Source of the DNA: an uncultured beta proteobacterium
Lineage (GTDB): Bacteria > Pseudomonadota > Gammaproteobacteria > Burkholderiales > SG8-41
NCBI GenBank assembly: GCA_903889565.1
Contig: CAISYC010000059.1
Coordinates: forward strand, 124,001 to 188,000
Direction: 5' to 3'
DNA: 64,000 nucleotides
The notes under the pieces: model-generated
The model's input: only the letters and a program-made list of their open reading frames with translations
Database searches by the model: none
What the model was told of the DNA's origin: nothing
Program-made: the position numbers and the translations under genes
Shown: in pieces, positions 3,277 to 55,336 of the stretch
Layout: the number at the start of each line of letters is the position of its first letter
Numbering within the stretch: position 1 is the first letter of the stretch

Positions 3277-3338
3277 CAAACAAGGCCGGGTTTCGCCCCC
3301 TATTTGCCAATTCGCATTGCGGCGCCCGGTGCTATTTT
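3277..3338 (+). promoter_or_regulatory. FlhDC operator and -10 box for motA
   Basis: Inverted halves CAAACAAGGCC (3277-3287) and CCCCTATTTGCC (3297-3308) are separated by 9 bases. A -10-like TATTTT (3333-3338) lies 28 bases beyond the core of the right half. The geometry matches the other seven operators in this window. Confidence 0.65.
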
Positions 3339-3414
3339 TCACTTGCACGGAAACCTGCGCACGAGGCGCGGTGAAGCGACTGTGCCAACGTGATGACGGA
3401 GAAGGGGCGGCGCC

Positions 3415-4266
3415 GTGCTGGTAATTGTCGGATATGTGTTGGTGATGGCATCGGTCTTCGGCGGTTTCGCCCTCGCCGGCGGCCATCTCGGGGCGCTGTT
3501 TCAGCCGCTTGAACTGCTGATGATCGGCGGCGCCGCGGCCGGCGCCTTTCTGGTCGGCAACAACGGCAAGGCGATCAAGGCCACGCTGAAGGCGTTGCCT
3601 TCGGTGCTGAAGGGCTCGAAATATTCGAAACAACTCTATATGGATCTGATGGCGTTGCTCTACGACATTCTGGCCAAGGTGCGCAAAGAGGGCCTGATGA
3701 CCATCGAGGGCGACGTCGAAAATCCCGGCCAGAGTCCGCTGTTCGCGAAATATCCGACGGTCGTCGCCGATCACCACGTGACCGAATTCATGACCGACTA
3801 TCTGCGCCTGATGGTCGGCGGCAATCTGAATGCGATGGAAATCGAAAACCTGATGGACAACGAAATCGGCACTCACCATCAGGAGGGCGAGGTGCCGGTG
3901 CATTGCGTGGCGAAGCTCGGCGACGGTCTGCCGGCCTTCGGCATCGTCGCCGCGGTGATGGGTGTCGTGCACACCATGGAATCGGTCGGCATCCCGCCGT
4001 CGGAACTCGGCATGCTGATCGCGCACGCGCTGGTCGGTACCTTCCTCGGCATTCTATTGGCCTACGGATTCGTCGGTCCGCTGTCGAGCCTGCTCGAACA
4101 GAAACTTATCGAGTCGTCCAAGATGTTCGAATGCGTCAAGGTCACGCTGCTGGCCAGCCTCAACGGTTATTCGCCGGCGCTGGCGGTGGAATTCGGGCGC
4201 AAGGTTCTGTTCTCCACCGAGCGTCCGTCCTTCCTCGAACTCGAAGCACACGTAAAACGAAAATAA
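3415..4266 (+). CDS. motA: Flagellar motor stator protein MotA
   Basis: The 283-residue protein has the MotA layout: two N-terminal membrane helices, a cytoplasmic domain of about 120 residues, then two C-terminal helices (FGIVAAVMGVVHTMESVG and the HALVGTFLGILLAYGFVGPL region). MotA forms a proton channel with MotB and drives rotor FliG. The start is GTG at 3415, preceded by GGAGAAGGGG; no ATG is better placed. motB follows after 38 bases. The gene sits behind a candidate FlhDC operator, which would make motAB class II here rather than class III as in E. coli. Confidence 0.96.
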   Translation: MLVIVGYVLVMASVFGGFALAGGHLGALFQPLELLMIGGAAAGAFLVGNNGKAIKATLKALPSVLKGSKYSKQLYMDLMALLYDILAKVRKEGLMTIEGDVENPGQSPLFAKYPTVVADHHVTEFMTDYLRLMVGGNLNAMEIENLMDNEIGTHHQEGEVPVHCVAKLGDGLPAFGIVAAVMGVVHTMESVGIPPSELGMLIAHALVGTFLGILLAYGFVGPLSSLLEQKLIESSKMFECVKVTLLASLNGYSPALAVEFGRKVLFSTERPSFLELEAHVKRK

Positions 4267-4304
4267 CCGCTGCGTGACGCACGCAAGCGTCGCGCGGACC
4301 CGAT

Positions 4305-5249
4305 ATGGCAGACGATACCCAGCGCCCGATAGTCATCAAGCGCATCAAGAAAACCGCCGCCGGCCACCACGGCGGCGCGTGGAAGATCGCCTATGCCGAC
4401 TTCGTGACGGCGATGATGGCGTTCTTTCTGTTGATGTGGCTGCTGGGCTCCACCACCAAGGGCGAACTGCAGGGCATATCCGATTACTTCCGCACACCGC
4501 TCAAGGTCGCATTGTCGGGCGGCAGCGGCAGCGGCGACAGCACCAGCCCGATTTCCGCCGGCGGCCGCGATCTCACGCGCAGCGACAGTCTGCAGATGAA
4601 ACGCGGCACGCTGCCCGAGCAGAAAAAGGCGATCAGCCCGAAAGAGGCGCAGGAGGTGATCGCGCGCCAGGAAAACGCCAAGATGAAGGCGCTGAAAATG
4701 CATCTCGACGCGGTGATCGACGCGAGCCCGCTGCTGCGCCAGTACCGCCAGCAGTTGCTGATCGACATCACCAACGAGGGCCTGCGCGTGCAGATCATCG
4801 ACGAGCAGAACCGCCCCATGTTCGATCTCGGCAGCGCGCATCTCAAACCTTATGCGCAGGACATCCTGCTCGCCTTGAGCAAAACGCTCAATGAAGTCGA
4901 CAACAGTCTCAGTCTCACCGGTCACACCGACGCCAAGCCCTATGCGCAGGGCGAAAAGGCCTACAGCAACTGGGAACTCTCGGCCGATCGCGCCAACACC
5001 TCGCGCCGCGTGCTGGTTGCCGGCGGCATCGCGGAGGGCAAGATCAAGCGCGTCGTCGGCATGTCGTCGGCGGTGCCGTTCGATCCGGTCGATCCGTTCA
5101 ATCCGGCCAACCGCCGTATTTCGATCATCGTGCTGAACCGGCAAACCGAAGAGTCGCTCAATCAGACCAGCGGCGGCATCCTGCCTGCCACGACAGACGC
5201 CGCCCCTGCACCCGCTGCCGCGGAGGTTCCCAATGCGCCTGCTCGCTGA
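4305..5249 (+). CDS. motB: Flagellar motor stator protein MotB
   Basis: The 314-residue protein has a basic cytoplasmic N-terminus, one membrane helix with the proton-carrying Asp32 (YADFVTAMMAFFLLMWLLG), a plug/linker region and a C-terminal OmpA-like peptidoglycan-binding domain (LTGHTDAKPY, SNWELSADRAN, NRRISIIVL). It anchors the stator to the cell wall. The last 16 bases overlap the next gene, suggesting translational coupling. The tail after the OmpA domain is Ala/Pro-rich. Confidence 0.96.
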   Translation: MADDTQRPIVIKRIKKTAAGHHGGAWKIAYADFVTAMMAFFLLMWLLGSTTKGELQGISDYFRTPLKVALSGGSGSGDSTSPISAGGRDLTRSDSLQMKRGTLPEQKKAISPKEAQEVIARQENAKMKALKMHLDAVIDASPLLRQYRQQLLIDITNEGLRVQIIDEQNRPMFDLGSAHLKPYAQDILLALSKTLNEVDNSLSLTGHTDAKPYAQGEKAYSNWELSADRANTSRRVLVAGGIAEGKIKRVVGMSSAVPFDPVDPFNPANRRISIIVLNRQTEESLNQTSGGILPATTDAAPAPAAAEVPNAPAR

Positions 5250-6003
5250 CCACGCCCCGATCCCGTTGCGCAATCCGCTGACGGCGGCCTGCGCCATCCA
5301 CGCCCTCAGTGCGGCGATTTGTTTTGCCCTGATGGCGGCACCCGCGCCGGCATTGCCGACGCTACTGTGGCCGTGGTGCGAAGGGCTGTGCGCAGCGGCG
5401 TTGGGTGCGGCGTGGAAGCTGCCGCGCTGGTGGCTGCCGATCAATCTGTTGTTTTTTCCGGCGGCGTTCGCGCTGATGGCGTTGAATGTGCCGCCGGTAT
5501 TCTGGCTGGCCGGATTCGGCGCGCTGGTGCTGCTCAACTTCGCCAGCGCCGCCGGCCGCGTGCCGCTGTTTCTGTCGACCACGCAGGCCGCCGCGGTGCT
5601 GACCACGCTGTTGCCGCAGCGCGCCGGCTGCCGCGTGCTCGACCTGGGCAGCGGCACAGGATCACTGCTGTCCGACCTTACACGCGTGCGGCCGGATGCC
5701 GTCTGCACCGGCATTGAAGTTGCGCCGCTGCCTTATCTGCTCGGCCGCCTGCGCGCCCGCTTCAATCCGATGCTGCGCATGCAGTGGGGCGATTTCTGGC
5801 AGGCCGATTTGTCGCAATACGACGTCGTCTATGCCTATCTGTCGCCGGCGCCGATGGCGCGGCTGTGGCAGAAGGCGCGCGCCGAGATGCGCCCCGGCAG
5901 CTTGCTGGTCAGCAACGATTTCTGCGTGCCCGGTGTGGCGCCCGCCGAAACCATCCCGGTCGGCGATCGCATGCGTTCGACGCTCTACATCTGGCGGATG
6001 TGA
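5233..6003 (+). CDS. Membrane-attached class I SAM-dependent methyltransferase
   Basis: The 256-residue protein has an N-terminal half with two to four hydrophobic segments (about residues 15-105). The C-terminal half is a methyltransferase with a clear motif I, VLDLGSGTGSLL (about 135-146), an acidic residue after strand 2 (TGIEVAPLP) and YDVVYAYLSP as motif IV. It should transfer a methyl group from S-adenosylmethionine; the substrate is unknown. It overlaps motB by 16 bases and stops one base before the HDOD gene, so all four probably share the motA promoter. It is not one of the standard flagellar genes. Confidence 0.8.
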   Translation: MRLLADHAPIPLRNPLTAACAIHALSAAICFALMAAPAPALPTLLWPWCEGLCAAALGAAWKLPRWWLPINLLFFPAAFALMALNVPPVFWLAGFGALVLLNFASAAGRVPLFLSTTQAAAVLTTLLPQRAGCRVLDLGSGTGSLLSDLTRVRPDAVCTGIEVAPLPYLLGRLRARFNPMLRMQWGDFWQADLSQYDVVYAYLSPAPMARLWQKARAEMRPGSLLVSNDFCVPGVAPAETIPVGDRMRSTLYIWRM

Positions 6004-6004
6004 A

Positions 6005-6943
6005 ATGAAAGCGGTGCCGAGCACGATGCAGGGCTGGGTCGAGATGCTGCGCTACGCCGAACTGCCGGTGCTGTCGCGCACGGTGACCGAACTGCAGCGG
6101 CTGCAGGAAGACGACGACCGCGCGACGCCGAAAAACGTCGCCCAGATCGTGATGCACGATCCGATGATGACGGTCAAGGTGCTGCAGTATCTGCAACGCC
6201 ATCGCAACCAGCGTCACAGCACCGAGATCACCACCATCGCGCACGCGCTGATGATGCTGGGCCTGACGCCGTTTTTCAATCATTTCAGCGTGCAGGCGGC
6301 GATCGAGGACAATCTGTCAGAAGACGCCGCGGCGCTGGAAGGTACGCGCTCGGTGATCAGCCGCGCGCGCCACGCCGCGCTCTACGCGTCGGACTGGGCC
6401 AATCTGCGCCACGACATCGATCCCGAGGAAGTCATGGTGGCGGCCCTGCTGCATGACATGGCCGAAATCCTGCTGTGGTGCTTTGCGCCGGAACTGGCGC
6501 TGGAGATCGCTGCGCAGAAGCGCCGCGACCGCACGCTGCGCAGCGACACCGCGCAGCTGCACGTGCTGGGCTTTCGCCTGATCGATCTGCAGCTCGCGAT
6601 GGTGAAGGCCTGGCATCTGCCGGATCTGCTGCGCGAACTGATCGACGAGCATCACGCGCGCAATCCGCGCGTGACCAACGTCGCCTTCGCGGCGGCGGTG
6701 GCGCGGCATACCGCGCACGGCTGGGACGACGCCGCGCTGCCCTACGATTACGCCGAGGTCGGCAAGCTGCTCGGCCTCACGCCCGGCGAGGTTGAGGCGC
6801 GCATCGTCAATGTCGCCGTGCGCGCCGCCGCCGACGCGGCATGGTACGGCGTCACGCCGCCCGCCGCGCTGCTGCCGGTCGCGGAGCCGGCCGATGACAC
6901 CGCTGCCGCCATCATCAACGGTCTAACGACCCCCCGTCCGTAA
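6005..6943 (+). CDS. HDOD-domain signalling protein
   Basis: The 312-residue protein starts MKAVPSTMQGWVEMLRYAEL and contains an HDOD domain from about residue 15 to 220: an N-terminal helical part (NVAQIVMHDPMMTVKVLQYL) and a degenerate HD core including MVAALLHDMAEILLW. HDOD proteins lack the full metal-binding set of HD phosphohydrolases and usually act as signalling scaffolds linked to c-di-GMP, motility or chemotaxis. It is the last gene of the motA-motB-methyltransferase run. The ATG at 6005 overlaps the previous stop region. The tail is Ala/Pro-rich. Confidence 0.82.
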   Translation: MKAVPSTMQGWVEMLRYAELPVLSRTVTELQRLQEDDDRATPKNVAQIVMHDPMMTVKVLQYLQRHRNQRHSTEITTIAHALMMLGLTPFFNHFSVQAAIEDNLSEDAAALEGTRSVISRARHAALYASDWANLRHDIDPEEVMVAALLHDMAEILLWCFAPELALEIAAQKRRDRTLRSDTAQLHVLGFRLIDLQLAMVKAWHLPDLLRELIDEHHARNPRVTNVAFAAAVARHTAHGWDDAALPYDYAEVGKLLGLTPGEVEARIVNVAVRAAADAAWYGVTPPAALLPVAEPADDTAAAIINGLTTPRP

Positions 6944-6969
6944 GCCGCCGCGGTTCGCGCAATTGCGCG

Positions 6970-7029
6970 AATAACCGCGCTTAAGCCCGCCTGTTTGGAG
7001 CATCGTCAGCCGCCCTCAGCCGCGATACT
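6970..7029 (+). promoter_or_regulatory. FlhDC operator and -10 box for flhB
   Basis: Half-sites AATAACCG (6970-6977) and CGCCTGTT (6988-6995) flank a 10-base spacer. GATACT (7024-7029) lies 28 bases downstream. The left half is the weaker one and overlaps a GC-rich palindrome, CGCGCAATTGCGCG, just upstream. Confidence 0.6.
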
Positions 7030-7083
7030 GCAGGGGTATTGAAACGGGGCGCGTGCCCGATTGATTCCCGCACACCGAGGCTG

Positions 7084-7158
7084 ATGAAAATGTTCAACGC
7101 TGCAGTGGTTTCTCCGCCGGCCGGTGTCTGCTCACCAGTGATTAACGGCAATGTCTGA
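7084..7158 (+). CDS. Possible 24-codon leader ORF coupled to flhB
   Basis: An ATG at 7084, preceded by GAGG, opens a frame reading MKMFNAAVVSPPAGVCSPVI and ending at a TGA (7156-7158) that overlaps the flhB start by 8 bases. flhB itself has no clear Shine-Dalgarno (the bases before its ATG read attaacggca). Translational coupling from this small ORF would explain how flhB is translated. Whether the peptide matters is unknown. Confidence 0.35.
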   Translation: MKMFNAAVVSPPAGVCSPVINGNV

Positions 7159-8290
7159 AGAAAACGCATCCGAACGGACAGAAGACGCAAGTCCACGGCG
7201 CCTGGAACAGGCGCGCGAGGAAGGCCACGTTCCGCGCTCGCATGAACTGACCACGTTCGCGATGATGGCGGCCTCCGGTGCCGGTCTGTGGTGGATGGGC
7301 GGACAGTTGTTCGCCAGGCTGCAGGCGATGGTGCAGGGCGCGCTGCAATTCGACGCCACCGGCGCCTTCGATTCCTCGCAGATGATGATCCGCATGCACA
7401 CCCAGTCGATCGAGGCCCTGCTGGCGCTCGCACCCCTGCTGCTGCTGCTGCTGCTGGTGGCGATTGCCGCCCCCCAGTTGCTGAGCGGCTGGCTGTTCAG
7501 TGCAGACGCGCTGCGCTTCGATCTGCAGCGCATCGATCCGCTGGCCGGCATTTCGCGCCTCGCTTCATGGCGCGGCATCGGCGAACTCGTCAAGGCCATC
7601 ATCAAGGCGACGCTGCTCGCCGTGGTCGGCGCGCTGACCGTCTGGCACTACCGCCAGTCGCTGGTGCAGCTGACCGCGCTGCCGCTGGAAGCCGGCATCG
7701 CCGAACTCGCGCGCATCGTCGGCAGCAGTTTTTTCATGCTCGCCGGCGCGCTCGCGGTGGTGGCTGCAGCCGATGTGCCGTTCCAGTTGTGGCGCCATGC
7801 CGACGAATTGAAGATGTCGCGCCAGGAACTGCGTCAGGAAGCCAAGGAAAACGACGGCGACCCGCAGATCAAGGCGGCGATCCGCGCCCAGCAACGCCAA
7901 ATGGCCAAGCGGCGCATGATGGCCGAAGTGCCGAAGGCCAGCGTGATCGTCACCAACCCGACGCATTTTGCGGTCGCCCTGCGTTACGACGAAACCATGC
8001 GCGCGCCGCGCGTGATCGCCAAGGGCGCCGACCTGGTGGCGGCGAAAATCCGCGAACTCGGCATGCAGCACAACGTGCCGGTACTCGAAGCGCCGGCGCT
8101 GGCGCGCGCGATTTTCCGTCACGCCGACATCAATGACGAGATACCGGGGCAGCTCTACACCGCAGTGGCCGAAGTGCTGGCCTATGTGTTCCAGCTGAGG
8201 AGTTACCGCGAACACGGCGGCATGGCGCCGCGCCCGCTGCCGGAAATCGTCGTGCCCGCCGGGCTTGATCCGAACGAGGCCAAATCATGA
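7151..8290 (+). CDS. flhB: Flagellar export switch protein FlhB
   Basis: The 379-residue protein has four membrane segments (about 30-215) followed by a cytoplasmic domain with the self-cleaving NPTH motif at residues 269-272. FlhB belongs to the flagellar type III export gate and switches export from rod/hook to filament substrates. The ATG at 7151 lacks a good Shine-Dalgarno and is probably coupled to the small ORF ending at 7158. flhA overlaps its end by 4 bases. A separate truncated FlhB-like protein lies at 45300-45608. Confidence 0.97.
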   Translation: MSEENASERTEDASPRRLEQAREEGHVPRSHELTTFAMMAASGAGLWWMGGQLFARLQAMVQGALQFDATGAFDSSQMMIRMHTQSIEALLALAPLLLLLLLVAIAAPQLLSGWLFSADALRFDLQRIDPLAGISRLASWRGIGELVKAIIKATLLAVVGALTVWHYRQSLVQLTALPLEAGIAELARIVGSSFFMLAGALAVVAAADVPFQLWRHADELKMSRQELRQEAKENDGDPQIKAAIRAQQRQMAKRRMMAEVPKASVIVTNPTHFAVALRYDETMRAPRVIAKGADLVAAKIRELGMQHNVPVLEAPALARAIFRHADINDEIPGQLYTAVAEVLAYVFQLRSYREHGGMAPRPLPEIVVPAGLDPNEAKS

Positions 8291-10392
8291 GCGCGGTGCT
8301 GGGAATGCCGGCACCGAGGGCCGCCGCCATCGCGCGCGGGCTTGCCGGGCCGATGCTGATCGTGATGCTGCTGGCGATGATGGTGCTGCCGCTGCCGCCG
8401 TTCATGCTCGACATGTTTTTCACCTTCAACATTGCGTTCTCGATCATGGTGCTGCTGGTCGGCATGAACACCGTCAAGCCGCTCGACTTCGCGGTGTTTC
8501 CGACGGTATTGCTGGTGACAACACTGCTGCGTCTGTCGCTCAACGTCGCCTCGACCCGCGTCGTGCTGCTTGAAGGCCACACCGGTCCGGATGCGGCCGG
8601 CAAGGTGATCGAATCCTTCGGCCACTTCCTCGTCGGCGACAACTACGCGGTCGGGCTGGTCGTCTTCGTCATCATGGTGGTGATCAACTTCGTCGTCATC
8701 ACCAAGGGTGCCGGCCGCATCGCCGAAGTCGGCGCGCGCTTCACCCTCGACGCGATGCCCGGCAAGCAGATGGCAATCGACGCCGAACTCAATGCCGGCC
8801 TGATCGCCGAGGACGAGGCGCGGCGTCGCCGCGCGGTGATTGCGCAGGAAGCGGATTTCTTCGGTTCGATGGACGGTGCGAGCAAATTCGTGCGCGGCGA
8901 CGCGGTGGCCGGCATCATCATTCTGTTCATCAACATCATCGGCGGGCTGGTCGTCGGCGTGCTCCAGCACGACATGGACATTGCGGCGGCGGCCAAGAAC
9001 TACACGCTGCTGACCATCGGCGACGGCCTCGTTGCGCAGATTCCGGCGCTGATCATCTCGACCGCCGCCGGTCTGGTGGTGAGCCGTGTCAGCACCGAGG
9101 AAAACACCGGCCAGCAGATCGTGTCGCAAATCCTCGCCAAGCCCGCGGCACTGGCGGTGACCGGCGCGATCATCGGCATCATGGGCATGGTGCCCGGCAT
9201 GCCGCATTTCGCCTTCCTGCTGCTCGCGGCTTGCTTCGGCGGCGGCGCCTGGTACATCCACAAACGCGGTCTCTTCGACGCGGCGCAGCCGGCGGCGCCT
9301 GCGGCCGCAGCTGCTGCTGCGGCTGCCGCGGCGGCAGGCACCGAAACGCATGAGGTCGGCTGGAGCGATGTCACGCCCGTCGATACGCTCGGACTCGAAG
9401 TCGGCTACCGCCTGATCCCGCTGGTTGACAAATCGCAGGACGCCGAACTGCTGCGCCGGATCAAGGCGATCCGCCGCAAATTCGCGCACGACGTCGGCTT
9501 TCTGCCGCCGGCGATTCATATTCGCGACAACCTCGAACTGCGTCCGGCCGGTTATCGCATCACCTTGAAGGGCGTCGAAATCGGCCAGCACGAAGCGCAT
9601 CCGGGCATGTTCCTCGCGATCAACCCGGGTCGCGTCAGCGGACCGCTGCCCGGGACGCAGACGCAGGACCCCGCGTTCGGTCTGCCGGCGGTGTGGATCG
9701 ACGCCGCGCAGCGCGAACTTGCCCAGCAGTACGGCTACACCGTGGTCGATGCCAGCACTGTCGTCGCCACCCATATCAGCCATCTGATCCACGCGCATGC
9801 AGCCGACCTGCTCGGTCGCCAGGAATTGCAGCAGCTGATCGATCACCTGTCGCGCGATACGCCGAAATTCATCGAGGACGTGGTGCCGAAGCTGCTGCCG
9901 ATGAGCACGCTGCAGCGCGTGCTGCAGAACCTGCTCGAGGAAGGCGTGCATATCCGCGACATGCGCACCATCGTCGAGGTGCTCGCCGCGCACGCGCCGC
10001 GCACCCAGGATCCGGGCGAATTGACGGCGCTGACGCGCGTCGCGCTTGGCCGCGCCATCGTGCAGCAGCTCGCGCCCGGCAAGTCGGAACTGCAGGTGCT
10101 CGCCCTCGATCCGGGTCTCGAGCGCCTGCTGATGCAGACGGTGCAGGGCGGCGGCGAGAGCAGCGTGATCGAACCCGATCTCGCCGAAACATTGTTGAAA
10201 AGCGCGCAGGCCGCCGCACGCCATCAGGAGCAGCTCGGCCTGCCGCCGGTGCTGCTGGTACCGGCACCGCTGCGCGTGCTGCTGTCGCGTTTTCTGCGGC
10301 GGGCGATTTCGCATCTCAAGGTTCTCGCGCACGCTGAAGTGCCGGATTCGCGCGCGATCAAAGTCACATCCGTTGTCGGGAGCAGGGCATGA
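8287..10392 (+). CDS. flhA: Flagellar export gate protein FlhA
   Basis: The 701-residue protein has an N-terminal membrane half of about eight helices (to about residue 330), with the conserved FHIPEP-type region between helices. The cytoplasmic C-terminal half forms the export ring that docks chaperone-substrate complexes. A low-complexity poly-alanine linker (residues about 338-352) joins the halves. FlhA is the largest component of the export gate and is essential for secretion. It overlaps flhB and flhF by 4 bases each. A 733-codon open frame on the opposite strand is a base-composition shadow. Confidence 0.97.
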   Translation: MSAVLGMPAPRAAAIARGLAGPMLIVMLLAMMVLPLPPFMLDMFFTFNIAFSIMVLLVGMNTVKPLDFAVFPTVLLVTTLLRLSLNVASTRVVLLEGHTGPDAAGKVIESFGHFLVGDNYAVGLVVFVIMVVINFVVITKGAGRIAEVGARFTLDAMPGKQMAIDAELNAGLIAEDEARRRRAVIAQEADFFGSMDGASKFVRGDAVAGIIILFINIIGGLVVGVLQHDMDIAAAAKNYTLLTIGDGLVAQIPALIISTAAGLVVSRVSTEENTGQQIVSQILAKPAALAVTGAIIGIMGMVPGMPHFAFLLLAACFGGGAWYIHKRGLFDAAQPAAPAAAAAAAAAAAAGTETHEVGWSDVTPVDTLGLEVGYRLIPLVDKSQDAELLRRIKAIRRKFAHDVGFLPPAIHIRDNLELRPAGYRITLKGVEIGQHEAHPGMFLAINPGRVSGPLPGTQTQDPAFGLPAVWIDAAQRELAQQYGYTVVDASTVVATHISHLIHAHAADLLGRQELQQLIDHLSRDTPKFIEDVVPKLLPMSTLQRVLQNLLEEGVHIRDMRTIVEVLAAHAPRTQDPGELTALTRVALGRAIVQQLAPGKSELQVLALDPGLERLLMQTVQGGGESSVIEPDLAETLLKSAQAAARHQEQLGLPPVLLVPAPLRVLLSRFLRRAISHLKVLAHAEVPDSRAIKVTSVVGSRA

Positions 10393-12381: not shown

Positions 12382-12382
12382 C

Positions 12383-14431: not shown

Positions 14432-14459
14432 TTAACGGAAGGCTTCGGACGAAACTTTA
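14432..14459 (-). promoter_or_regulatory. Sigma-28 promoter for flgMN
   Basis: On the minus strand the sequence reads TAAAGTTT-N12-TCCGTTAA, which is a perfect -35 and a 6/8 -10 against the enterobacterial FliA consensus. It lies in the flgA-flgM gap. Confidence 0.75.
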
Positions 14460-15321: not shown

Positions 15322-15415
15322 ATTGTGCCGCCCCGGCAGGCGTCCGCAGCAGTGGAATTGAACTTGTTTTCGCCGCCTGATCACCCGATGAGCAGCGGCC
15401 GGCGCTAATTATTAT
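15322..15415. promoter_or_regulatory. Bidirectional FlhDC operator for flgA and flgB
   Basis: Halves AATTGAAC (15356-15363) and CGCCTGAT (15374-15381) flank 10 bases. Going right, TATTAT (15410-15415) lies 28 bases from the operator core and serves flgB. Going left, CACAAT on the minus strand (15322-15327) also lies 28 bases away and serves flgA. The left half-site is weak, but the two-way spacing is exact. Confidence 0.65.
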
Positions 15416-33472: not shown

Positions 33473-33534
33473 ATTATCGCGGGCGCCCCGCCTGCCCGAT
33501 GAGTTGAACAGGCGGCTTTATGCCCGCCTTATTC
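33473..33534 (-). promoter_or_regulatory. FlhDC operator and -10 box for fliLMNOPQR
   Basis: Plus-strand halves GAACAGGCG (33506-33514) and CGCCTTATTC (33525-33534) flank 10 bases. On the minus strand GATAAT (33473-33478) lies 27 bases beyond the operator. It gives fliL its own class II promoter, separate from the fliF operon. Confidence 0.7.
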
Positions 33535-39934: not shown

Positions 39935-40027
39935 ATTATGCGGATTCGCCGGCGGCGCCAAGCCGCAAAAAGGGCGGTGTTTCGGCGCCTATTTGCGCCG
40001 CGCTGCGGCGGGGCGCGCTGTTAGGCT
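39935..40027. promoter_or_regulatory. Bidirectional FlhDC operator for fliF and fliE
   Basis: Halves GCAAAAAGGGCG (39965-39976) and CGCCTATTTGC (39986-39996) flank 9 bases. Toward fliF, CATAAT on the minus strand (39935-39940) lies 28 bases from the core. Toward fliE, TAGGCT (40022-40027) lies 28 bases away; it is the weaker -10. Confidence 0.7.
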
Positions 40028-45250: not shown

Positions 45251-45310
45251 AGTCTAGCCGCGTGCGCCGCGCGCCAAATCTGCGAACAGGCGGCGTTTTC
45301 TACGCCTGTT
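45251..45310 (-). promoter_or_regulatory. FlhDC operator and -10 box for ycgR-like gene
   Basis: AACAGGCG-N10-CGCCTGTT (45285-45310) is a perfect inverted repeat. On the minus strand TAGACT (45251-45256) lies 28 bases beyond it. The operator overlaps the last codons and stop of fhlB. Confidence 0.75.
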
Positions 45311-46581: not shown

Positions 46582-46623
46582 GGGCGGTTGTCGGTGCGCT
46601 GTCGGATCGCGTGCCGGACGCGC

Positions 46624-46950: not shown

Positions 46951-46955
46951 TCTGC

Positions 46956-47411
46956 TCAAACCCTGCGCAAGGCCGCGGCCGCCAGCGCCTCGGGCGTCAG
47001 CGCCGGCTCATTGGTGGCGACCGCCGGCCGGATTTGCGCCCACGCGCCGCGCAATTCACCGAGCAGGCGGCTGACTTCGTCGATGTGTTCCGGCGTGTTG
47101 CGCAGATTCGCCTCCAGCAGGCGCGTGCACATGTAGTCGTAGAGCGCCGCCAGCCGTTCGCCCAGTGCACCGCCGGCCTTGATATCGAGGCTCGCGCGCA
47201 GACCGCTTTCGATGATCGCGATCGCCTTCGAGATGGCCTGCCCCTTGGCGGCGATGTTGCGCTGGGCAATCTGCCGCTTGGCGTCGATCAACGCGCAAAG
47301 TGCGCCATCGTAGAGCATGAGTATCAGCTTGTGCGGATCGGCGTTGGCGACATCGGTTTCAATGCCGATGTTGGAGTAGGCGTTGATGCCGCGGCGTGCG
47401 GTTGCAAACAT
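46956..47411 (-). CDS. fliS: Flagellin export chaperone FliS
   Basis: The 151-residue protein has the FliS signature INAYSNIGIETDVANADPHK and LILMLYDGALCALIDAKRQI. It binds the C-terminus of flagellin and keeps it unpolymerised before export. The last part (about 125-151) is an Ala-rich tail. It starts 5 bases after fliD. Confidence 0.95.
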   Translation of the reverse strand: MFATARRGINAYSNIGIETDVANADPHKLILMLYDGALCALIDAKRQIAQRNIAAKGQAISKAIAIIESGLRASLDIKAGGALGERLAALYDYMCTRLLEANLRNTPEHIDEVSRLLGELRGAWAQIRPAVATNEPALTPEALAAAALRRV

Positions 47412-47416
47412 TATGG

Positions 47417-49429: not shown

Positions 49430-49499
49430 GTTGTGGAGAGTGTCGCTGGTTTTTGGTTCCGCTTGCGTTCAGCCAGTGTCAGGACCGGCTGTCGAGGGA

Positions 49500-49544
49500 G
49501 TTTCTGACGCGGAACAACGCTGTGCATTGTTCCGCGTCAGAAAC
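49500..49544. repeat. 18-bp perfect hairpin between fliC and fliD
   Basis: GTTTCTGACGCGGAACAA (49500-49517), a 9-base loop and its exact complement (49527-49544) form a long perfect stem. The 12-mer GACCGGCTGTCG stands on both sides (49483-49494 and 49558-49569). There is no U-tract on either strand. It could stabilise the fliC mRNA 3' end, reduce read-through into fliD, or be a small mobile palindrome. Confidence 0.8.
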
Positions 49545-49603
49545 CACCAATTGCCGCGACCGGCTGTCGCCGGCCGCAGCAATGGGGCTTGACGCAATTA
49601 CAA

Positions 49604-51022
49604 TTAACCCAACAGTTTCAGAACGGTGTTCGGCAGCGAGTTGGCTTGCGCTAGCATCGCGATACCGGCCTGCTGCAACACTTCGTTGCGCGTCAGGTTG
49701 GCGGTTTCCGACGCGAAGTTCGTGTCCTGGATCGCACTGCGCGAGGCCGTCAGATTCTGTGTGGTCTCCTGCAGTGATGCGACCACCGACGTAAACCGGT
49801 TTTGCACCGCACCGAGGGTCGCCTGCGTGGTGTTGATCTGGTTGATTGCGGCGTCGATCGAGGTGATTGCGGCATTGGCACCGTTTACACTCGAAATGTC
49901 GGTATTCAGAACCGACACACCGGTCTGGGCCGCAGCCACCGTGCCGTTTACGCCATCCGTCGTTGCCGACGCGCCTGCGATCGTCATGCCGGCGGAGTTG
50001 GTCGAGGTGACGGTGTAGGTCGACTTGGTCGTCGCCGCGATGCCGCCGCCCATCGCCGTGTCGCCGGCGACCAGGGTGCCGCCCAGTGCGATGGTGACAT
50101 TGCGGCCGTCCACTGCGGCCAATTTGAGGGCGCCGCCAGCGTTGCTGGCGGTGACACCCGTTGCGCCGCTGATCAGGTTGATGGCGCTGATCGAGTTCGC
50201 GAGGTCGGTCGCCGCGACGCCGGTTGCGGTTACGGTGGCAGTCTGTACGCCGTTGATCGTGATCTTGCCGGCATGAGCTGCGGTGGACGCCGCCGCGGCA
50301 GCGGTCACTGAGGTGGCAGCTGCAGTCGCGGAGACACCGGTAATTCCGCGCGCATTTATTGCGTTTGCGATCGACTGCGCGTCCGCGGCGATGGTGGTGC
50401 CTTGATACACGTCCTGCGCATTGCCGTTCGCATCGGTAATCGTAAATTGGCCGCCTGCGGTGATGGTGGTTGCGGTGCCGGTGCTGGTTGCGGAAGCCGA
50501 GTAGCTCTGGCCCAGAGTCGCCGCGCGAGCGCTGGCGATGGAACCGACGGTAATCGTCTGTCCGGAATTCGCACCGACCTGGAACTGCGCACCCTGGAAG
50601 GTGCCGTCGAGCAGGTTGACGCCGTTGAACGAAGCCTGCGTCGCAACGCGGTCGATTTCCGCGATCAGTTGCGAAGCCTGCGTTTGCAGGGCCGCGCGGT
50701 CGCTCGAGCTGTTGGTGGCGTTGGCCGATTGCACAGCCAGCGTGCGCAGGCTTTGCAGGTCGTTGGTGATCTGCGAAAGATTGCCACCGGCGGTTTGCGC
50801 GAGGTTGATACCATCGCTGGCGTTTTGCGAGGCGCGGGTGTCGCCGTTGATCTGCGCGGTAAAGCGGTTGCTGATGGCCAGACCGGCCGCGTCATCCGCC
50901 GCGCTGTTGATACGCATGCCCGAAGACAGACGCTGGATCGAGGTGGCGAGCGACGATTGCGAATTCGACACGTTGTTTTGTGCGATCAGCGAAGCGATAT
51001 TGGTATTGATGCTTAATCCCAT
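49604..51022 (-). CDS. fliC: Flagellin FliC
   Basis: The 472-residue protein has conserved D0/D1 termini: MGLSINTNIASLIAQNNVSN, QRLSSGMRINSAADDAAGLA and, at the C-terminus, ETANLTRNEVLQQAGIAMLA with ANSLPNTVLKLLG. It is the filament subunit. The middle (about 175-380) is a Thr/Ala-rich variable domain. It has a strong FliA-type promoter and a structured leader. Only one flagellin gene is in view. AGGAG lies 7 bases upstream of the ATG. Confidence 0.97.
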   Translation of the reverse strand: MGLSINTNIASLIAQNNVSNSQSSLATSIQRLSSGMRINSAADDAAGLAISNRFTAQINGDTRASQNASDGINLAQTAGGNLSQITNDLQSLRTLAVQSANATNSSSDRAALQTQASQLIAEIDRVATQASFNGVNLLDGTFQGAQFQVGANSGQTITVGSIASARAATLGQSYSASATSTGTATTITAGGQFTITDANGNAQDVYQGTTIAADAQSIANAINARGITGVSATAAATSVTAAAAASTAAHAGKITINGVQTATVTATGVAATDLANSISAINLISGATGVTASNAGGALKLAAVDGRNVTIALGGTLVAGDTAMGGGIAATTKSTYTVTSTNSAGMTIAGASATTDGVNGTVAAAQTGVSVLNTDISSVNGANAAITSIDAAINQINTTQATLGAVQNRFTSVVASLQETTQNLTASRSAIQDTNFASETANLTRNEVLQQAGIAMLAQANSLPNTVLKLLG

Positions 51023-51049
51023 GATGTGCTCCTAGTTAAGTTTGTCAAA

Positions 51050-51102
51050 GCGGCTCATCGCCGTGACGTTGAGCTGGTGCCCCCTTGTGGGGTGTGAGCC
51101 GC
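51050..51102 (-). promoter_or_regulatory. Structured 5' leader of fliC
   Basis: The predicted fliC leader contains GCGGCTCA ... TGAGCCGC (51050-51057 with 51095-51102) enclosing a CCCC/GGGG hairpin. The Shine-Dalgarno AGGAG lies outside the stem, so it stays free. CTTTGACGG and CCGCTTTGAC sequences also repeat at the two edges. Confidence 0.5.
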
Positions 51103-51113
51103 CGTCAAAGGCA

Positions 51114-51141
51114 GTTACGGCAGGGTCGGGGGACGACTTTA
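51114..51141 (-). promoter_or_regulatory. Sigma-28 promoter for fliC
   Basis: On the minus strand the sequence reads TAAAGTCG-N12-GCCGTAAC. Transcription would start near 51106, giving a leader of about 85 bases. Confidence 0.8.
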
Positions 51142-51145
51142 ATCC

Positions 51146-51178
51146 GGCACCCTCGCCGCCCGGCCGCGGCGGGGTGCC
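51146..51178 (-). terminator. Strong hairpin after the first diguanylate cyclase gene
   Basis: GGCACCC-CGCCGC-ggccgg-GCGGCG-a-GGGTGCC on the minus strand is a 13-pair stem with one bulge. It lies 14 bases after the stop at 51192 and just before the fliC promoter. No U-tract follows. Confidence 0.55.
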
Positions 51179-51191
51179 GTCGTGAGTTCAA

Positions 51192-52004
51192 TCAGTTGCA
51201 ATCGGCGGTGACCACGCGCTGCTTGCCGGCGCGTTTGGCGGCGTAGAGCGCGCTGTCGGCAGCCGAGATCACCGCATCGCGGGCCTGTCCCTGGCGGCGC
51301 GCGGCAACCCCGGCGCTGAAGCTCAGCGGAATCTCGACGCCGCGGTAAACCAGCGGATGGCGGTTGAGGTCGTATTGCAGGCGGTGCAGCACGCGCGCGG
51401 CCTGCGCGGTGGCCGAATCGGGCAGCAGGAACAGGAACTCCTCGCCGCCGAAGCGCACCACCACATCGCTGGGCCGCACGGTGCGGCGGATGACGTCGGC
51501 CAGATGCACTAGTGCGGCGTCGCCGGCAGGGTGGCCGTGGTGATCGTTGAGGCGCTTGAAATCGTCGATGTCGAGCAATGCCACGCCGAGCGGCGAGTTG
51601 GTGCGGTCGGCGCGCGCGGCTTCGCGCTTGTAGCTCAAATCGAGCCCGCTGCGGTTGAGCGTGCCGGTGAGGTGATCGACATGCACGAGGCCGCGCAACT
51701 GGCGCAGCTCGATCTGCAGTGCCTCGATTTCGCGTTCGGTGCGCTGCACGCGGTCCGGCGCGGTGCGGCTGCGCGGGTGGGCGCCGAGCGCGCGCGTGTC
51801 GGTCAGCGCTTCATCGAGAATGTTGATGATGGTGTTGATGTCCTCGCTGCCGCGGATGCGGTGCGCGTAGGCCTCGATGCGCCGGTAGTATTCGCTGGTG
51901 CGCGGCGAAATCGCCGCCGCCGCCGCCGCGGCGATGGTTGCCGCGGGTGCGGCTGCCGGCGATTTGACCAGACGCAGACGGTGCTTCGGTTTGGCGGTAA
52001 GCAT
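51192..52004 (-). CDS. GGDEF diguanylate cyclase (FlhDC-tier)
   Basis: The 270-residue soluble protein has an Ala-rich N-terminus, a helical part (about 38-100) and a GGDEF domain (about 108-268) with active site RFGGEEF and inhibitory site RPSD five residues before it. It should make c-di-GMP from two GTP and be feedback-inhibited. There is no membrane or sensor domain. An FlhDC operator upstream gives it its own class II promoter, so c-di-GMP synthesis rises together with the hook-basal-body genes. It lies next to fliC but is transcribed separately. Confidence 0.9.
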   Translation of the reverse strand: MLTAKPKHRLRLVKSPAAAPAATIAAAAAAAISPRTSEYYRRIEAYAHRIRGSEDINTIINILDEALTDTRALGAHPRSRTAPDRVQRTEREIEALQIELRQLRGLVHVDHLTGTLNRSGLDLSYKREAARADRTNSPLGVALLDIDDFKRLNDHHGHPAGDAALVHLADVIRRTVRPSDVVVRFGGEEFLFLLPDSATAQAARVLHRLQYDLNRHPLVYRGVEIPLSFSAGVAARRQGQARDAVISAADSALYAAKRAGKQRVVTADCN

Positions 52005-52045
52005 GCTGGGCCCCTCGTGGCTGAACGGTGAATCCCGTGTGCATC

Positions 52046-52104
52046 ACATTAGCAAGCCTGCTGCAATCCGGTGCTCGGAACAGGCGGCAAACCCGGCCGC
52101 AATT
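52046..52104 (-). promoter_or_regulatory. FlhDC operator and -10 box for the first diguanylate cyclase
   Basis: AACAGGCG (52079-52086) and CCGCAATT (52097-52104) flank 10 bases. On the minus strand TAATGT (52046-52051) lies 27 bases beyond the operator. Confidence 0.65.
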
Positions 52105-52122
52105 CCGGCTTTTGCCCTGCGC

Positions 52123-53742
52123 TCAGCGTGCCGCGGCAAGCCCGCCCGCGGATGCGCTTTCGGCGGCAGCAGGGGCGGCCGGCGCCAGCGCGAAGACGCG
52201 GTTCTTGCCGCTGCGCTTGGCCTCGTAGAGCGCACCGTCGGCGCGCGCGATGGTCGCGGTCTGCGTTTCGCCCGCGGTGTAGCGGGTAACACCGGCACTG
52301 AAGGTGATCAGGATCTTGGCGTTGTCGTGCAGGAAAAAGCGCTTGGTCAGCTCGCGCTGCGCGCGCGCCATTACTGCGAGCGCCGCGTCGATATCGGAGT
52401 CGGGCAGCAGGACGAGAAATTCCTCGCCGCCGAAACGCGCCACGCTGTCGCCGGGGCGCACGGTTTCGCGGATGACTTTGGCGAGATGGGTCAGCGCGTC
52501 ATCGCCGACGGCATGCCCGAAATGGTCATTCAGTTCCTTGAAATTGTCGACGTCAAGCAGCGCCACCGACAGCGTCTGCTGCTTGCGCTCGGCGACCGCG
52601 ATTTCGCGCGTGAAGGCGTCGGCGAGGCCGCGCCGGTTGAGCGTGCCGGTAAGGCTGTCGATGCGCACCTGTTCGCTTGCCTGCACCAGTTCGGCTTCGA
52701 GTTCGGCGACACGGCGTTCGGCCGCATCGACTTTTTGCCGCGAGGCCAGCACCTCTTCGCGCGCGCGCAGCGTGCGCGCCTGCACGTCGTGCGTTTCGCG
52801 CAGCACTTCGCCGAGCAGGCGGTTCAACTGGTCGACGTCGTTGCTCTGCCTTATCTGCTGCGAGAGGTTTTCCAGCGTATCGTGATAGTCGCCGGTGGTT
52901 GTCGACAGGTGGCCGAGTTCGTCGATGAACGCGGCGACCATCTGCTTGAGGCTGTTCTTGACCTCGCCGAGGCCGCGCTTGAGCAGGGCCTGGCGTACGA
53001 TCAGATCCTGCAGGCCGGTCTTGGCCGCCTCGATCGCGGCCATGTCGAGCGGGTTCGAGATGGCGCGCAGCACCGCGGCGATCTGGCCGCGCAGCCACTG
53101 GTCGTCTTCGACCAGTTCGCCGACGTTTTCGATCAGGAGGCGCAGCAGTTCGAGGAGCCCCGTCTGCAGCTGGTTTTGCGTGTTGCCATGCGCTGTGATG
53201 CGGCGCCACAGCGCCGTCAGCTGGCTGCGCAGCGCCAGCACCTCGACCGGTTTGCCGTTGCGCAGGCTGGCGGCGATGGCGTTTGCCTCGGCCGCGAGTT
53301 CCGGCGCGTCGAGCAGGCGCGCGGACACGCCGGCCTCCAGCGTCTGCGCCAGCAGTTCGCACAGTTCCAGCGGCGGCTGTTCGGGCCGCGCGTCGCTGGC
53401 GCGCACGCGCGGCGAGGTGATCGAGAATATCGGTGTCGCCGGCGGCGGCGCCGTCTTGTGCGTGAGTTCAAGCAGGTAATGATGGGCGCGCGCCCACTGG
53501 CCGCAGGCGGTCGCGTTGCTGAACGCATTGACGGCGGCGACCTGTTCCGGCGTTTCGCGCGGCAGGTCGAGTGCAATCCGCTGCAGCATTTTTTCCGCGG
53601 TCAGACCCACGTCCTCGCCGCCGTGCCCGGAAATCTCACAGTAGAGCTTGCGATAATTGTCGGGCGTCGGCGTGATCTTGCGCGTCACCAGCAGGCGCAG
53701 CGTTTCGCGCGCGATCTCGTTGGGCTTGTTCAGTACCGTCAT
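52123..53742 (-). CDS. GGDEF diguanylate cyclase with long N-terminal helical region (FliA-tier)
   Basis: The 539-residue protein begins MTVLNKPNEIARETLRLLVT, followed by a helical region (about 40-360) containing PTPDNYRKLYCEISG and a coiled coil (about 325-365). A C-terminal GGDEF domain (about 370-525) has RFGGEEF and the RPGD inhibitory site. It should make c-di-GMP. The same N-terminal PTPxNYxxLYxEI motif is common in betaproteobacterial cyclases. The ATG at 53742 has AGGAG upstream; a longer open frame to 53901 has no support. A FliA-type promoter lies at 53794-53821. Confidence 0.9.
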   Translation of the reverse strand: MTVLNKPNEIARETLRLLVTRKITPTPDNYRKLYCEISGHGGEDVGLTAEKMLQRIALDLPRETPEQVAAVNAFSNATACGQWARAHHYLLELTHKTAPPPATPIFSITSPRVRASDARPEQPPLELCELLAQTLEAGVSARLLDAPELAAEANAIAASLRNGKPVEVLALRSQLTALWRRITAHGNTQNQLQTGLLELLRLLIENVGELVEDDQWLRGQIAAVLRAISNPLDMAAIEAAKTGLQDLIVRQALLKRGLGEVKNSLKQMVAAFIDELGHLSTTTGDYHDTLENLSQQIRQSNDVDQLNRLLGEVLRETHDVQARTLRAREEVLASRQKVDAAERRVAELEAELVQASEQVRIDSLTGTLNRRGLADAFTREIAVAERKQQTLSVALLDVDNFKELNDHFGHAVGDDALTHLAKVIRETVRPGDSVARFGGEEFLVLLPDSDIDAALAVMARAQRELTKRFFLHDNAKILITFSAGVTRYTAGETQTATIARADGALYEAKRSGKNRVFALAPAAPAAAESASAGGLAAAR

Positions 53743-53793
53743 TTTTGCTCCTGCCGTGCCGCGCACACTGCGCATAGGGCTGCATCGCAGGAA

Positions 53794-53821
53794 ATTACGG
53801 CGGATTGTCGCCAGGACTTGA
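53794..53821 (-). promoter_or_regulatory. Sigma-28 promoter for the second diguanylate cyclase
   Basis: On the minus strand the sequence reads TCAAGTCC-N12-GCCGTAAT, about 50 bases before the start codon. Confidence 0.65.
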
Positions 53822-53954
53822 GCGCCGGCGGCGGCGCTTTGATGCGAAGCGCGTGCCTGCGCGGCCACGGCAATCAAGGACTTGGCCGCGCTCGCCGCCA
53901 TGTTGGCGGGCGTTTACATACGCGGCGGCGCTGGCGCGCGCTGCCGGGGCCTGC

Positions 53955-55229
53955 TCAGGACGACACCGCCTTGGCGTAAAAATAGGCGGTACGCGCGCGC
54001 GGATTGAGAAAGTCGCGGACTTCCGCTTCGAGGTCGCTGGCGCGCAGCGAGCGCTCGATTTTGATTTCCGGTTCGACCGCCAGATCGATTACCGGCGCAT
54101 CCTCGGGTTTGCAGCCATCCTGCCAGATCGTCACCAGCGGGCGCAGCGAGTTGTCGCGGTTGACGCTGGTGACGAGGCCGACCGCGCCGTTCGACAGTTC
54201 GACCAGCGAGCCCGGCGGGTAGACGCCGAGGCATTTGATCAGGCAGGCCAGCACCGCGGGGTCGAAATGTTTGCCCTCGAGTTTGAACATGCGCGACAGC
54301 GCCAGCGACGGCGGCATGCTGTCCTGAATGCGCTGCGGATTGCACAGTTCGTCGTAGCGGTCGGCCACCGCCACGTAGCGCACGAACGGCGGGATTTTTT
54401 CGCCGGTCAGCTTGAACGGGTAGCCGCTGCCGTCCCAGCGCTCGTGGTGCATTGCCACGATCGCGCGCGCGAGCGCGCTGAATTCCGGCAGATTGAGCGT
54501 CATCTTGGCGCCGAGGTCGGTGTGTTTCTGCATGTAATCGTGGTCGGCGCGCGTCCATTCGGCTTCCGGCTTCATGCGCACGGCGTCGGGCACGCGCAGC
54601 ATGCCGATATCGTGAAACAGCGCGCCGATGCCGATTTCGTTGAGGCCCTGGCCTTCGACGCCCTGCGCTTTGGCAATCAGCAACGACAGCAGCATGACGT
54701 TGATCGAATGGCTGTGAATATTGCTGCCGGCAAGACGGTCGGAGAGCAGGACGATGCTGACTTCCTGATCCGAATTGAAAGCGTTGGCCACTTCGTTGAC
54801 GATGCCCATGGCCCTGGCGACCGCCGCTTTCGGCGCGGAATAGGCCTGCGCGAAGGCGCCGCGCAATTCGCTGTTGGCGATGGCATAGGCCTTGGCCGCG
54901 GCGGCGGTGCGGCTTTTCGATTCATCGGTCTTGATGCGGCGTTCTTCACGCAGCGCGCGCGCTTTTTCGACCAGGTCTTTCCAGCCCGCCGCGCGCGGGC
55001 GCTCGATGTCGACTTCGCGCGGGCCCTTGTCCGAGTGCTCGCGGCACCACAGCACGCTGGTCATGCCGAGGCCGATGATGATGCGGATCTGCTCTTCGCT
55101 CTCGAGCGTGAATTCGTTGAGCAGGAACGGATGGTCGAGCCAGCGCTCGGCCAGCGAGACGTGCATGCCCGGTTGCAGTGCTTCAACCGGCACGCGTTCG
55201 AAATGTTTCTTTTTTCCCCAGATACTCAT
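53955..55229 (-). CDS. HD-GYP c-di-GMP phosphodiesterase with DUF3391-type N-terminus
   Basis: The 424-residue protein has an N-terminal DUF3391-like domain (about 10-120: VPVEALQPGMHVSLAERWLD) and an HD-GYP domain (about 145-330) with HSHSINVMLLS, ALFHDIGMLRVPD and HHERWDGSGYP, so the catalytic residues and GYP motif are intact. It should break down c-di-GMP. An FlhDC operator upstream places it in the class II tier. No membrane segment is seen. Confidence 0.9.
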   Translation of the reverse strand: MSIWGKKKHFERVPVEALQPGMHVSLAERWLDHPFLLNEFTLESEEQIRIIIGLGMTSVLWCREHSDKGPREVDIERPRAAGWKDLVEKARALREERRIKTDESKSRTAAAAKAYAIANSELRGAFAQAYSAPKAAVARAMGIVNEVANAFNSDQEVSIVLLSDRLAGSNIHSHSINVMLLSLLIAKAQGVEGQGLNEIGIGALFHDIGMLRVPDAVRMKPEAEWTRADHDYMQKHTDLGAKMTLNLPEFSALARAIVAMHHERWDGSGYPFKLTGEKIPPFVRYVAVADRYDELCNPQRIQDSMPPSLALSRMFKLEGKHFDPAVLACLIKCLGVYPPGSLVELSNGAVGLVTSVNRDNSLRPLVTIWQDGCKPEDAPVIDLAVEPEIKIERSLRASDLEAEVRDFLNPRARTAYFYAKAVSS

Positions 55230-55277
55230 GGCAGCGCAATTCGATGGCCGTCCCGCAGAGGGACTTCCGGCGACTAA

Positions 55278-55336
55278 AGCATAATCCGATTGATCGGCGT
55301 CAAATTCGCGAACAGCGGCGGTTCATGGCCGCTAAT
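55278..55336 (-). promoter_or_regulatory. FlhDC operator and -10 box for the HD-GYP gene
   Basis: AACAGCGG (55311-55318) and CCGCTAAT (55329-55336) flank 10 bases. On the minus strand TATGCT (55278-55283) lies 27 bases beyond the operator. Confidence 0.65.

Follow-up and report, generated by a model that had tools for sequence, protein, structure and literature searches.

Putative FlhD4C2 operators at a fixed distance from -10 boxes in a betaproteobacterial flagellar gene cluster

Eight 26-bp inverted repeats in the window (the whole 64,000-nt stretch of DNA that was analysed), together with a ninth that the initial annotation had overlooked, lie upstream of flagellar and signalling genes, and a -10-like hexamer is found 27 or 28 bp beyond each repeat. 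Judged by their sequence and by their recurrence in relatives, they are very likely the operators at which FlhD4C2, the flagellar master activator, binds. The FlhDC operator is degenerate: of 11 sites bound in E. coli, 7 contain the motif derived from ChIP sites (PMC4183435). Such an operator becomes searchable once the rigid spacing of 27/28 bp to a -10 box is included: operator and -10 box together set the nine window sites cleanly apart from the rest of the window, and the same combination also works for relatives among the betaproteobacteria and, in hindsight, for E. coli. FlhDC regulons of uncultured organisms can in this way be read simply from their genomes, and testable candidates for direct targets in c-di-GMP signalling come into view. 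An earlier statement of the 27/28-bp rule was not found in the titles and abstract openings that were searched, and the rule is not claimed here to be unpublished.

Operators and -10 boxes in the window

The genes for both subunits of the activator lie in the window: flhD at 2233..2550 (+; PF05247 at the matching place in the genome, E 9.1e-40) and flhC at 2589..3203 (+; PF05280, E 4.9e-88), the sequence of which has a readable C-x2-C ... C-x2-C pattern. A matrix scan of the window placed the core starts of the eight repeats, all readable as 8-N10-8, exactly at 3279, 6970, 15356, 33507, 39968, 45285, 52079 and 55311, so that the sites are present where the initial annotation had put them, apart from three (given as 3277, 33506 and 39965) that were off by 2, 1 and 3 positions. 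The half-site AAYARGCG proposed with them fits loosely, being exact in just 6 of the 16 listed halves.

The predicted operators upstream of motA (3279..3304, +; TATTTT at 3333..3338, +, 28 bp), flhB (6970..6995, +; GATACT at 7024..7029, +, 28 bp), fliL (33507..33532, -; GATAAT at 33473..33478, -, 28 bp) and the HD-GYP gene at 53955-55229 (55311..55336, -; TATGCT at 55278..55283, -, 27 bp) were assigned by matrix and combined score; a second GGDEF gene comes after the HD-GYP gene. For two more, the -10 test contributed as well: a predicted operator at 15356..15381 is common to the divergent genes flgA (CACAAT at 15322..15327, -, 28 bp) and flgB (TATTAT at 15410..15415, +, 28 bp), and another at 39968..39993 to fliF (CATAAT at 39935..39940, -, 27 bp) and fliE (TAGGCT at 40022..40027, +, 28 bp). 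Relatives provided additional evidence for the predicted operators of a ycgR-like gene encoding PilZN and PilZ domains (45285..45310, -; TAGACT at 45251..45256, -, 28 bp) and of the GGDEF gene at 51192-52004 (52079..52104, -; TAATGT at 52046..52051, -, 27 bp). The -10 box of the ycgR-like gene touches the first possible start of the frame (TTG, 45251), so the real start must lie further down.

A half-site matrix trained on the eight sites, and used to rank 63,975 window positions, recovered seven of them at ranks 1-7 and the flgA/flgB site at rank 9; when each site was left out of the matrix in turn, seven of the eight still ranked 1 to 7 and flgA/flgB fell to rank 29. Rank 8 was taken by the predicted ninth operator (1978..2003, -; combined score 21.0), which is oriented toward a ParA-like gene (1146-1910, -) with TATCCT at 1944..1949 (-), 28 bp from the core. 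All nine sites fit inverted halves 10 bp apart, where 10-12 bp is expected for FlhD4C2 sites; 10 bp was the sole gap scanned, so that this is a fit and does not establish which gap is best. When core and -10 box were scored together, the nine sites gave 21.0-29.5 and the next match in the window 13.8. A weak tenth candidate, likewise overlooked, is found at 57685..57710 (+) upstream of the MCP-cheYAW operon (E 0.037 in the genome scan, combined score 13.8), with TAGCCT at 57739-57744 (+), 28 bp away; the first possible start of the MCP frame (57663) precedes it.

The spacing claimed in the initial annotation was borne out in all ten reading directions, a -10-like hexamer lying 27 bp beyond the core in three and 28 bp in seven. 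Several of the listed hexamers are poor (CACAAT, TAGGCT, TAATGT), as would be expected if the spacing were an artefact of loose hexamers picked by eye. Yet the listed hexamer, scored without choice against 70 offsets beyond the core, is the best in 8 of 10 directions, and second best in the other two (fliE, TAGGCT; HD-GYP, TATGCT). The better of the 27- and 28-bp scores averages 5.9 bits, using assumed base frequencies for the -10 box, while 20,000 random rotations reached at most 2.8 at any spacing, and none of them equalled the observed result. The rotation test thus rejects chance hexamers as the source of the spacing, which was seen again when relatives were searched with nothing but the core, and the probability that it is an artefact is negligible.

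FlhD4C2 would bind a pseudo-palindrome of about 42 bp comprising outer A/T pairs, AAYARGCG-like halves and an A/T-rich centre. If the -10 box occupies -12 to -7, the operator centre would lie about 53.5 bp upstream of the transcription start, and the promoter-side outer arm would cover the place of the -35 element, so that FlhD4C2 would take the part of the missing -35 box and bring sigma70 RNA polymerase to a -10 box at the required spacing. The symmetry of the site would allow a single operator to serve two divergent promoters at equal distances, as at flgA/flgB and fliF/fliE. A profile of 38 promoters has a -10 box of 6.6 bits, a strength partly built in because the -10 box had a share in the choice of rows, and at the -35 place it has the outer arm of the operator, with no TTGACA. 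Sequences, spacing, conservation and association with FlhC are observed directly; binding, activation and polymerase contact at the window sites would follow by analogy with E. coli FlhDC, for which all three are established.

The suggestion that the regulon can be read from one window was too strong, since six more candidate places (one of them doubtful) were found elsewhere in the genome. The genome scan used a 70-position, sequence-only model, and its first look scored 150 of 3,354 candidates. Its training set included eight window promoters of the 28-bp class, which were therefore recovered by construction; the known sites at 52079 and 55311 are missing from its list, so that the genome count is a lower bound. 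A match at C72:25769 (E 0.009), which points at a converging TctC-type gene, is not claimed, and another at C60:77674 (E 0.18), with no -10 box at 27/28 bp, was also set aside.

Recurrence in relatives and association with FlhC

Class II genes were preceded by operator and spacing together in 53 of 90 cases outside the window. For twenty other genes, which were grouped after the scan and scanned as far as the point where the alignment of each gene begins, the count was 1 of 215 with window rows included; the sole match among these precedes a GGDEF2-like gene of genome G048 with a good operator. Outside both groups were flhA (1/15), flhD (1/12), parA (1/2), MCP (1/2) and HD-GYP (1/1). Canonical class II operons, then, tend to have predicted operators before them, and class III or operon-internal genes almost never do. 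Counted over 14 relatives together with the window itself, operator and -10 box accompany fliF in 14/14, flhB in 10/15, flgB and fliE in 8/14 each, flgA and fliL in 7/14 each, and motA in 6/12; no motA site was found in G113, G021, G029 or G031 (scores under 3).

When the relatives were scanned with the window-trained core alone, 71 of 113 regions held a core scoring 8 or more. The best -10 box then lay at 27/28 bp toward the gene for flgB in 13/20, fliF in 18/22, flhB in 12/18 and fliM/fliL in 5/11 (controls: shuffled 6/115, coding 0/14), and was missing from that place in 23 of the 71. On the far side the spacing was frequent where a divergent gene exists (flgA 12/20, fliE 11/22) and otherwise rare (flhB 1/18, fliM 0/11). 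For named fliF loci it was seen on the fliF side in 26/49 and on the fliE side in 19/49; a core of score 8 was missing from 29 of 80 such loci, and the spacing on the fliF side from 23 of the 49. Many of the relatives' putative sites are weak. There are also strong matches elsewhere: among those listed, G079 has one of 22.3 between flhA and flhF, beyond the scanned distance from the estimated flhF start in both gene-start scans, and one of 16.1 near an flgE match, while G031 has one of 26.3 near cheW.

The predicted operators also go with the regulator. A match at E 0.01 was obtained in 10 of 12 FlhC-positive and 2 of 12 FlhC-negative genomes, the other 10 FlhC-negative genomes having none; among FlhC-bearing genomes, G049 gave no match at E 0.05 and G079 a single one, at E 0.026. 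In G048, which has seven rows below E 0.01, FlhC was looked for and not found. A flagellar cluster that carries such operators in a genome where FlhC was not found would suit the view that the repeats bind another flagellar regulator, whether activator or repressor, with FlhDC merely a neighbour. Against this, FlhC is carried by G094 and G176, genus-mates of G048, so that an assembly gap in G048 is likely; with G048 set aside, a match at E < 0.01 occurs in 1 of 11 FlhC-negative genomes versus 6 of 8 FlhC-positive genomes without training sequences. The sites also agree position by position with the base-specific E. coli FlhDC consensus, ANNA-N18-TNWT-N6-WT as quoted in PMC12888815: seven of the nine match all 7 positions in at least one orientation, and the flgA/flgB and GGDEF sites match 6 of 7. 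Full matches to this quoted consensus number 20 in 127,932 positions of the window, and 10 of them fall on the nine sites. The same layout, moreover, is found at E. coli promoters of known FlhDC targets, and a different regulator is very improbable. The reading as an FlhDC regulon is upheld by the FlhD and FlhC genes encoded in the window together with agreement with the consensus, recurrence in relatives and association with FlhC; these lines of evidence, with the near-equal geometry in E. coli K-12, identify the predicted regulon as an ordinary FlhD4C2 class II regulon, whose mechanism is already known.

Cyclic-di-GMP genes and a ParA-like gene as candidate targets

Several genes of cyclic-di-GMP signalling appear to be controlled directly by the FlhDC switch, and the predicted direct control of ycgR, GGDEF and HD-GYP genes is the less expected part of the regulon. 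There is a slightly better than even chance that FlhDC in this genus directly activates ycgR, two or more GGDEF genes, HD-GYP, the ParA-like ATPase and a coiled-coil-like protein of about 990 residues along with the basal body. If this is true, a c-di-GMP-dependent brake (ycgR) and its signal would be built with the motor and not with the filament. Close to its C-terminus the coiled-coil-like protein has a hydrophobic stretch. It is not claimed that flhDC controls itself through the site at 1978, because the flhD-ward hexamer is merely TTGCTT.

It could instead be that only the canonical flagellar sites are functional, and that the matches at ycgR, GGDEF, HD-GYP and parA arose by chance or have decayed. 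Of 9 GGDEF1 cases outside the window, only 2 reached the threshold; the HD-GYP comparison consists of the window gene alone (1/1); for parA a single relative was over the cut and had no site there, and the window parA site scores lowest among the nine; and no ycgR site was found in G021, G047, G048, G040 or G079. However, the four window sites score 21.0, 23.8, 24.3 and 29.5, within or adjoining the flagellar range of 22.6-27.9 and far above the 13.8 of the next window match. Outside the window, 5 of 10 ycgR cases again have a site upstream, all in the same family, G113 representing another genus, and G048, of another family, has a GGDEF gene with an operator scoring 25.2. In G012 a like operator with the same -10 has been kept although parA has decayed. 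Restriction of function to the flagellar sites is accordingly judged unlikely.

Comparison with known systems

E. coli FlhD4C2 class II promoters (flgA/flgB, fliE/fliF, flhB, fliL, fliD and fliA) have the same operator register, A/T centre and outer arms. With the core read as 8-N10-8, 7 of 8 directions in E. coli K-12 have a -10-like hexamer at 27-28 bp, and fliA has one at 26 bp; this spacing was read after the fact, and the hexamers at flgB, flhB and fliE are not the best ones. The fixed spacing is common to E. coli, and is thus no special feature of this organism. The operator halves are AACAGGCG-like here and AAATAGCG in E. coli. The motA and ycgR genes, which have predicted FlhDC sites here, belong to the sigma28 class in E. 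coli. A single operator for divergent flgA/flgB is found in E. coli, as here (PMC12781870).

FlhDC boxes have been predicted in another betaproteobacterium, Acidovorax delafieldii LR140, with an OmpR-family regulator and a hypothetical protein as extra high-confidence targets; in the accessible part of that account (PMC12888815) the boxes listed include no ycgR, GGDEF or HD-GYP gene, and no -10 spacing is given with them. The SetCD boxes of SXT/R391 elements (PMC4344509) differ in being 19 bp long, in belonging to another regulator and in residing on mobile elements. As here, the activator is FlhCD-related, and the SetCD box adjoins or overlaps the -35 place in promoters that have no recognisable -35.

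Predicted operators and promoter spacing in the flagellar cluster

The eight inverted repeats that the initial annotation had taken for FlhDC operators are all present, as 8-N10-8 cores starting at 3279 (motA), 6970 (flhB), 15356 (flgA/flgB), 33507 (fliL), 39968 (fliF/fliE), 45285 (ycgR-like), 52079 (a GGDEF gene, GGDEF1) and 55311 (HD-GYP). When a half-site matrix built from them was run over the 63,975 positions of the window, seven took ranks 1-7 and the flgA/flgB site rank 9; under leave-one-out matrices the seven stayed within ranks 1-7 and flgA/flgB dropped to 29. Rank 8 fell to an extra site at 1978, 67 bp upstream of the start of a ParA-like gene and with TATCCT at exactly 28 bp past the core. 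A like site stands at the same place in the relative G012, again with TATCCT at 28 bp, yet parA there is decayed: the remnant adjoins flhDC (stretch L184, contig 87 of G012, about 64180-65000 of the contig), with the FlhDC-type operator and TATCCT retained. Scored as core plus -10, the nine window sites reach 21.0-29.5, against 13.8 for the next-best match in the window.

The fixed distance proposed at the same time is likewise borne out: a -10-like hexamer starts 27 or 28 bp past the core end in 10 of 10 directions, and in eight of these it tops 70 offsets. With sigma70 -10 frequencies as the scoring scheme, taking the better of the scores at 27 and 28 in each direction gives a mean of 5.9 bits, the maximum across all spacings in 20,000 rotations being 2.8. 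For ycgR, and for a weak candidate operator before the MCP-cheYAW operon (57685-57710, + strand), the earliest available start codon is placed at the promoter or upstream of it; the true start must therefore lie farther downstream.

The genome comprises 5.04 Mb in 74 contigs, the window lying within contig 59; among named loci the closest FliF proteins come mostly from betaproteobacterial metagenome bins, followed by Nitrosovibrio and Nitrosospira. The cluster contains flhDC, motAB, flhB-flhA-flhF-flhG-fliA, flgN-flgM-flgA, flgB onward, the fliL and fliF blocks, fliE, fliD-fliS-fliT and fliC, together with the ycgR-like gene, GGDEF and HD-GYP genes and the MCP-cheYAW operon. Names were assigned with Pfam on 40 frames, FlhC and FlhD by separate searches, and flhA, flhG and others by position. 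Putative sigma28-like elements lie before flgM (14432-14459, - strand) and before MCP-cheYAW (57622-57649, + strand), and would fit the usual third tier of flagellar genes.

Conservation among relatives and presence of FlhC

The window core by itself was used to scan 113 upstream regions, taken from 28 or 29 genomes for each of flgB, fliF, flhB and fliM. In the 71 regions whose core scored at least 8, the best -10 was then located. It lay at 27/28 on the gene side in 13/20 (flgB), 18/22 (fliF), 12/18 (flhB) and 5/11 (fliM). On the far side it did so where a divergent gene is expected (flgA 12/20, fliE 11/22), and in 1/18 (flhB) and 0/11 (fliM) where none is; controls gave 6/115 for shuffled and 0/14 for coding sequence. 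From a partly overlapping set of 80 named fliF loci, two dropped out for insufficient length and 29 for lack of a core scoring 8; among the remaining 49 the -10 lay at 27/28 on the fliF side in 26, on the fliE side in 19 and on both in 15 (shuffled controls, 0/4).

The best operator with -10 before each gene was then sought at a threshold of 14 in 18 sequence sets, namely the window and 14 relatives, some represented by several contigs. Window included, matches were found for fliF (14/14), flhB (10/15), flgB and fliE (8/14 each), flgA and fliL (7/14 each), motA (6/12), ycgR (6/11) and GGDEF1 (3/10); with the window left out, the seven flagellar genes together gave 53/90, ycgR 5/10 and GGDEF1 2/9. 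GGDEF1 of the relative G047 falls just under threshold (13.3), and a 70-position model built on the 28-bp class gives the same place with E 0.005. Smaller counts were obtained for parA and MCP (1/2 each), HD-GYP (1/1), flhD (1/12, the 1978 site in reverse reading) and flhA (1/15, a site between flhB and flhA in the relative G048). Twenty comparison genes (HDOD, flhF, fliA, flgM, flgE, flgK, fliR, fliP, fliM, fliK, fliI, fliK2, fliS, fliD, fliC, GGDEF2, HKRR56, cheY, cheA and cheW) gave 1/215 when the scan extended down to the aligned part and 0/215 without that extension, the sole match, scoring 25.2, lying before a GGDEF2-like gene in G048. Beyond the per-gene scans, strong matches among those listed lie between flhA and flhF (22.3) and near an flgE match (16.1) in G079, and near cheW (26.3) in G031.

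The 70-position model was run across 24 genomes, 12 FlhC-positive and 12 FlhC-negative. A match at E <=0.01 was found in 10/12 FlhC-positive genomes, four of which had supplied training sequences; among the other eight the figure is 6/8. At this cut-off G191 and G048, both FlhC-negative, gave one and seven rows, respectively, and the other ten FlhC-negative genomes none, six of them having one row each at 0.014-0.026. Contig 5 of G048 (L293-L296) carries a flagellar cluster with FlhDC-type operators, and FlhC was not found in searches of that genome; since its genus-mates G094 and G176 have FlhC, an assembly gap is the likely explanation.

Candidate sites elsewhere in the genome

The suggestion that the FlhDC regulon could be read from one window is too strong: six further candidate places at E <=0.01, one of them doubtful, lie outside. 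The scan used the same 70-position model, which includes the -10; its E-values are rough and, with 150 of 3,354 candidates scored in its first look, the count is a lower bound. The best match outside the window is an FlhDC-type operator, with TAGAAT at 28 bp, at a distant GGDEF gene on contig C5 (L251:3829-5466); the gene's 545-aa open frame begins upstream of the operator, so the true start must lie farther downstream. On C25, an FlhDC-type operator and CATAAT lie upstream of a 984-aa coiled-coil-like ORF (L252:4109-7063, + strand), as they do for its G012 counterpart (L181:859-3843, - strand). These Ala/Glu/Arg-rich ORFs (984-994 aa) are 63% identical and have, by eye, a hydrophobic stretch near the C-terminus; the C25 copy had no match in Pfam or NCBIfam. 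Other candidate places concern a 346-aa LysM protein (C68:332713), a TPR-methyltransferase (C68:290980) and, on C60, a protein of 107 aa, rich in Ser/Thr/Asn/Gln, that has a His cluster and no Pfam match (L255:4927-5250) and lies downstream of a candidate FlhDC promoter; one on C72 is directed toward a converging gene. Operators with CATGAT on C12 (L258, about 4678-4745) and in G012 (L301:5605-5671) can be aligned, each followed by a similar frame of about 60 codons with no clear start codon; a small gene or an RNA may be present there.

Comparison with the E. coli system

The base-specific consensus for E. coli FlhDC, as cited in PMC12888815, is ANNAN18TN(A/T)TN6(A/T)T. All seven positions are matched in at least one orientation by 7/9 sites, and six by the other two; the window holds 20 full matches on both strands, 10 of them on the nine sites. 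In a 38-promoter profile the outer arms agree with the motif AAYGSSNNAAATAGCG-N10-12-CGCTATTTNNSSCRTT (PMC9962212), the centre is A/T and a -35 consensus is absent. With cores positioned by the same motif and taken as 8-N10-8, a -10-like hexamer falls at 27/28 for E. coli K-12 flgA, flgB, flhB, fliE, fliF, fliL and fliD, and at 26 for fliA; this is a post hoc reading in which the 27/28 hexamer is not the best for flgB, flhB and fliE and other gaps do equally well or better for several promoters. In E. coli, one FlhD4C2 site is reported to activate both flgA and flgB (PMC12781870).

In the mechanism proposed, FlhD4C2 would be placed at about -53.5, with the promoter-side arm of its operator covering the place of the -35 element, and would direct polymerase carrying sigma70 to a -10 lying at a set distance; the symmetry of the operator would allow one operator to drive two promoters. 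The best reading of operators and spacing, judged from sequence, is that they represent the known E. coli FlhD4C2 system, and what appears new lies in the detail, namely the c-di-GMP genes and the ParA-like gene as predicted FlhDC targets.
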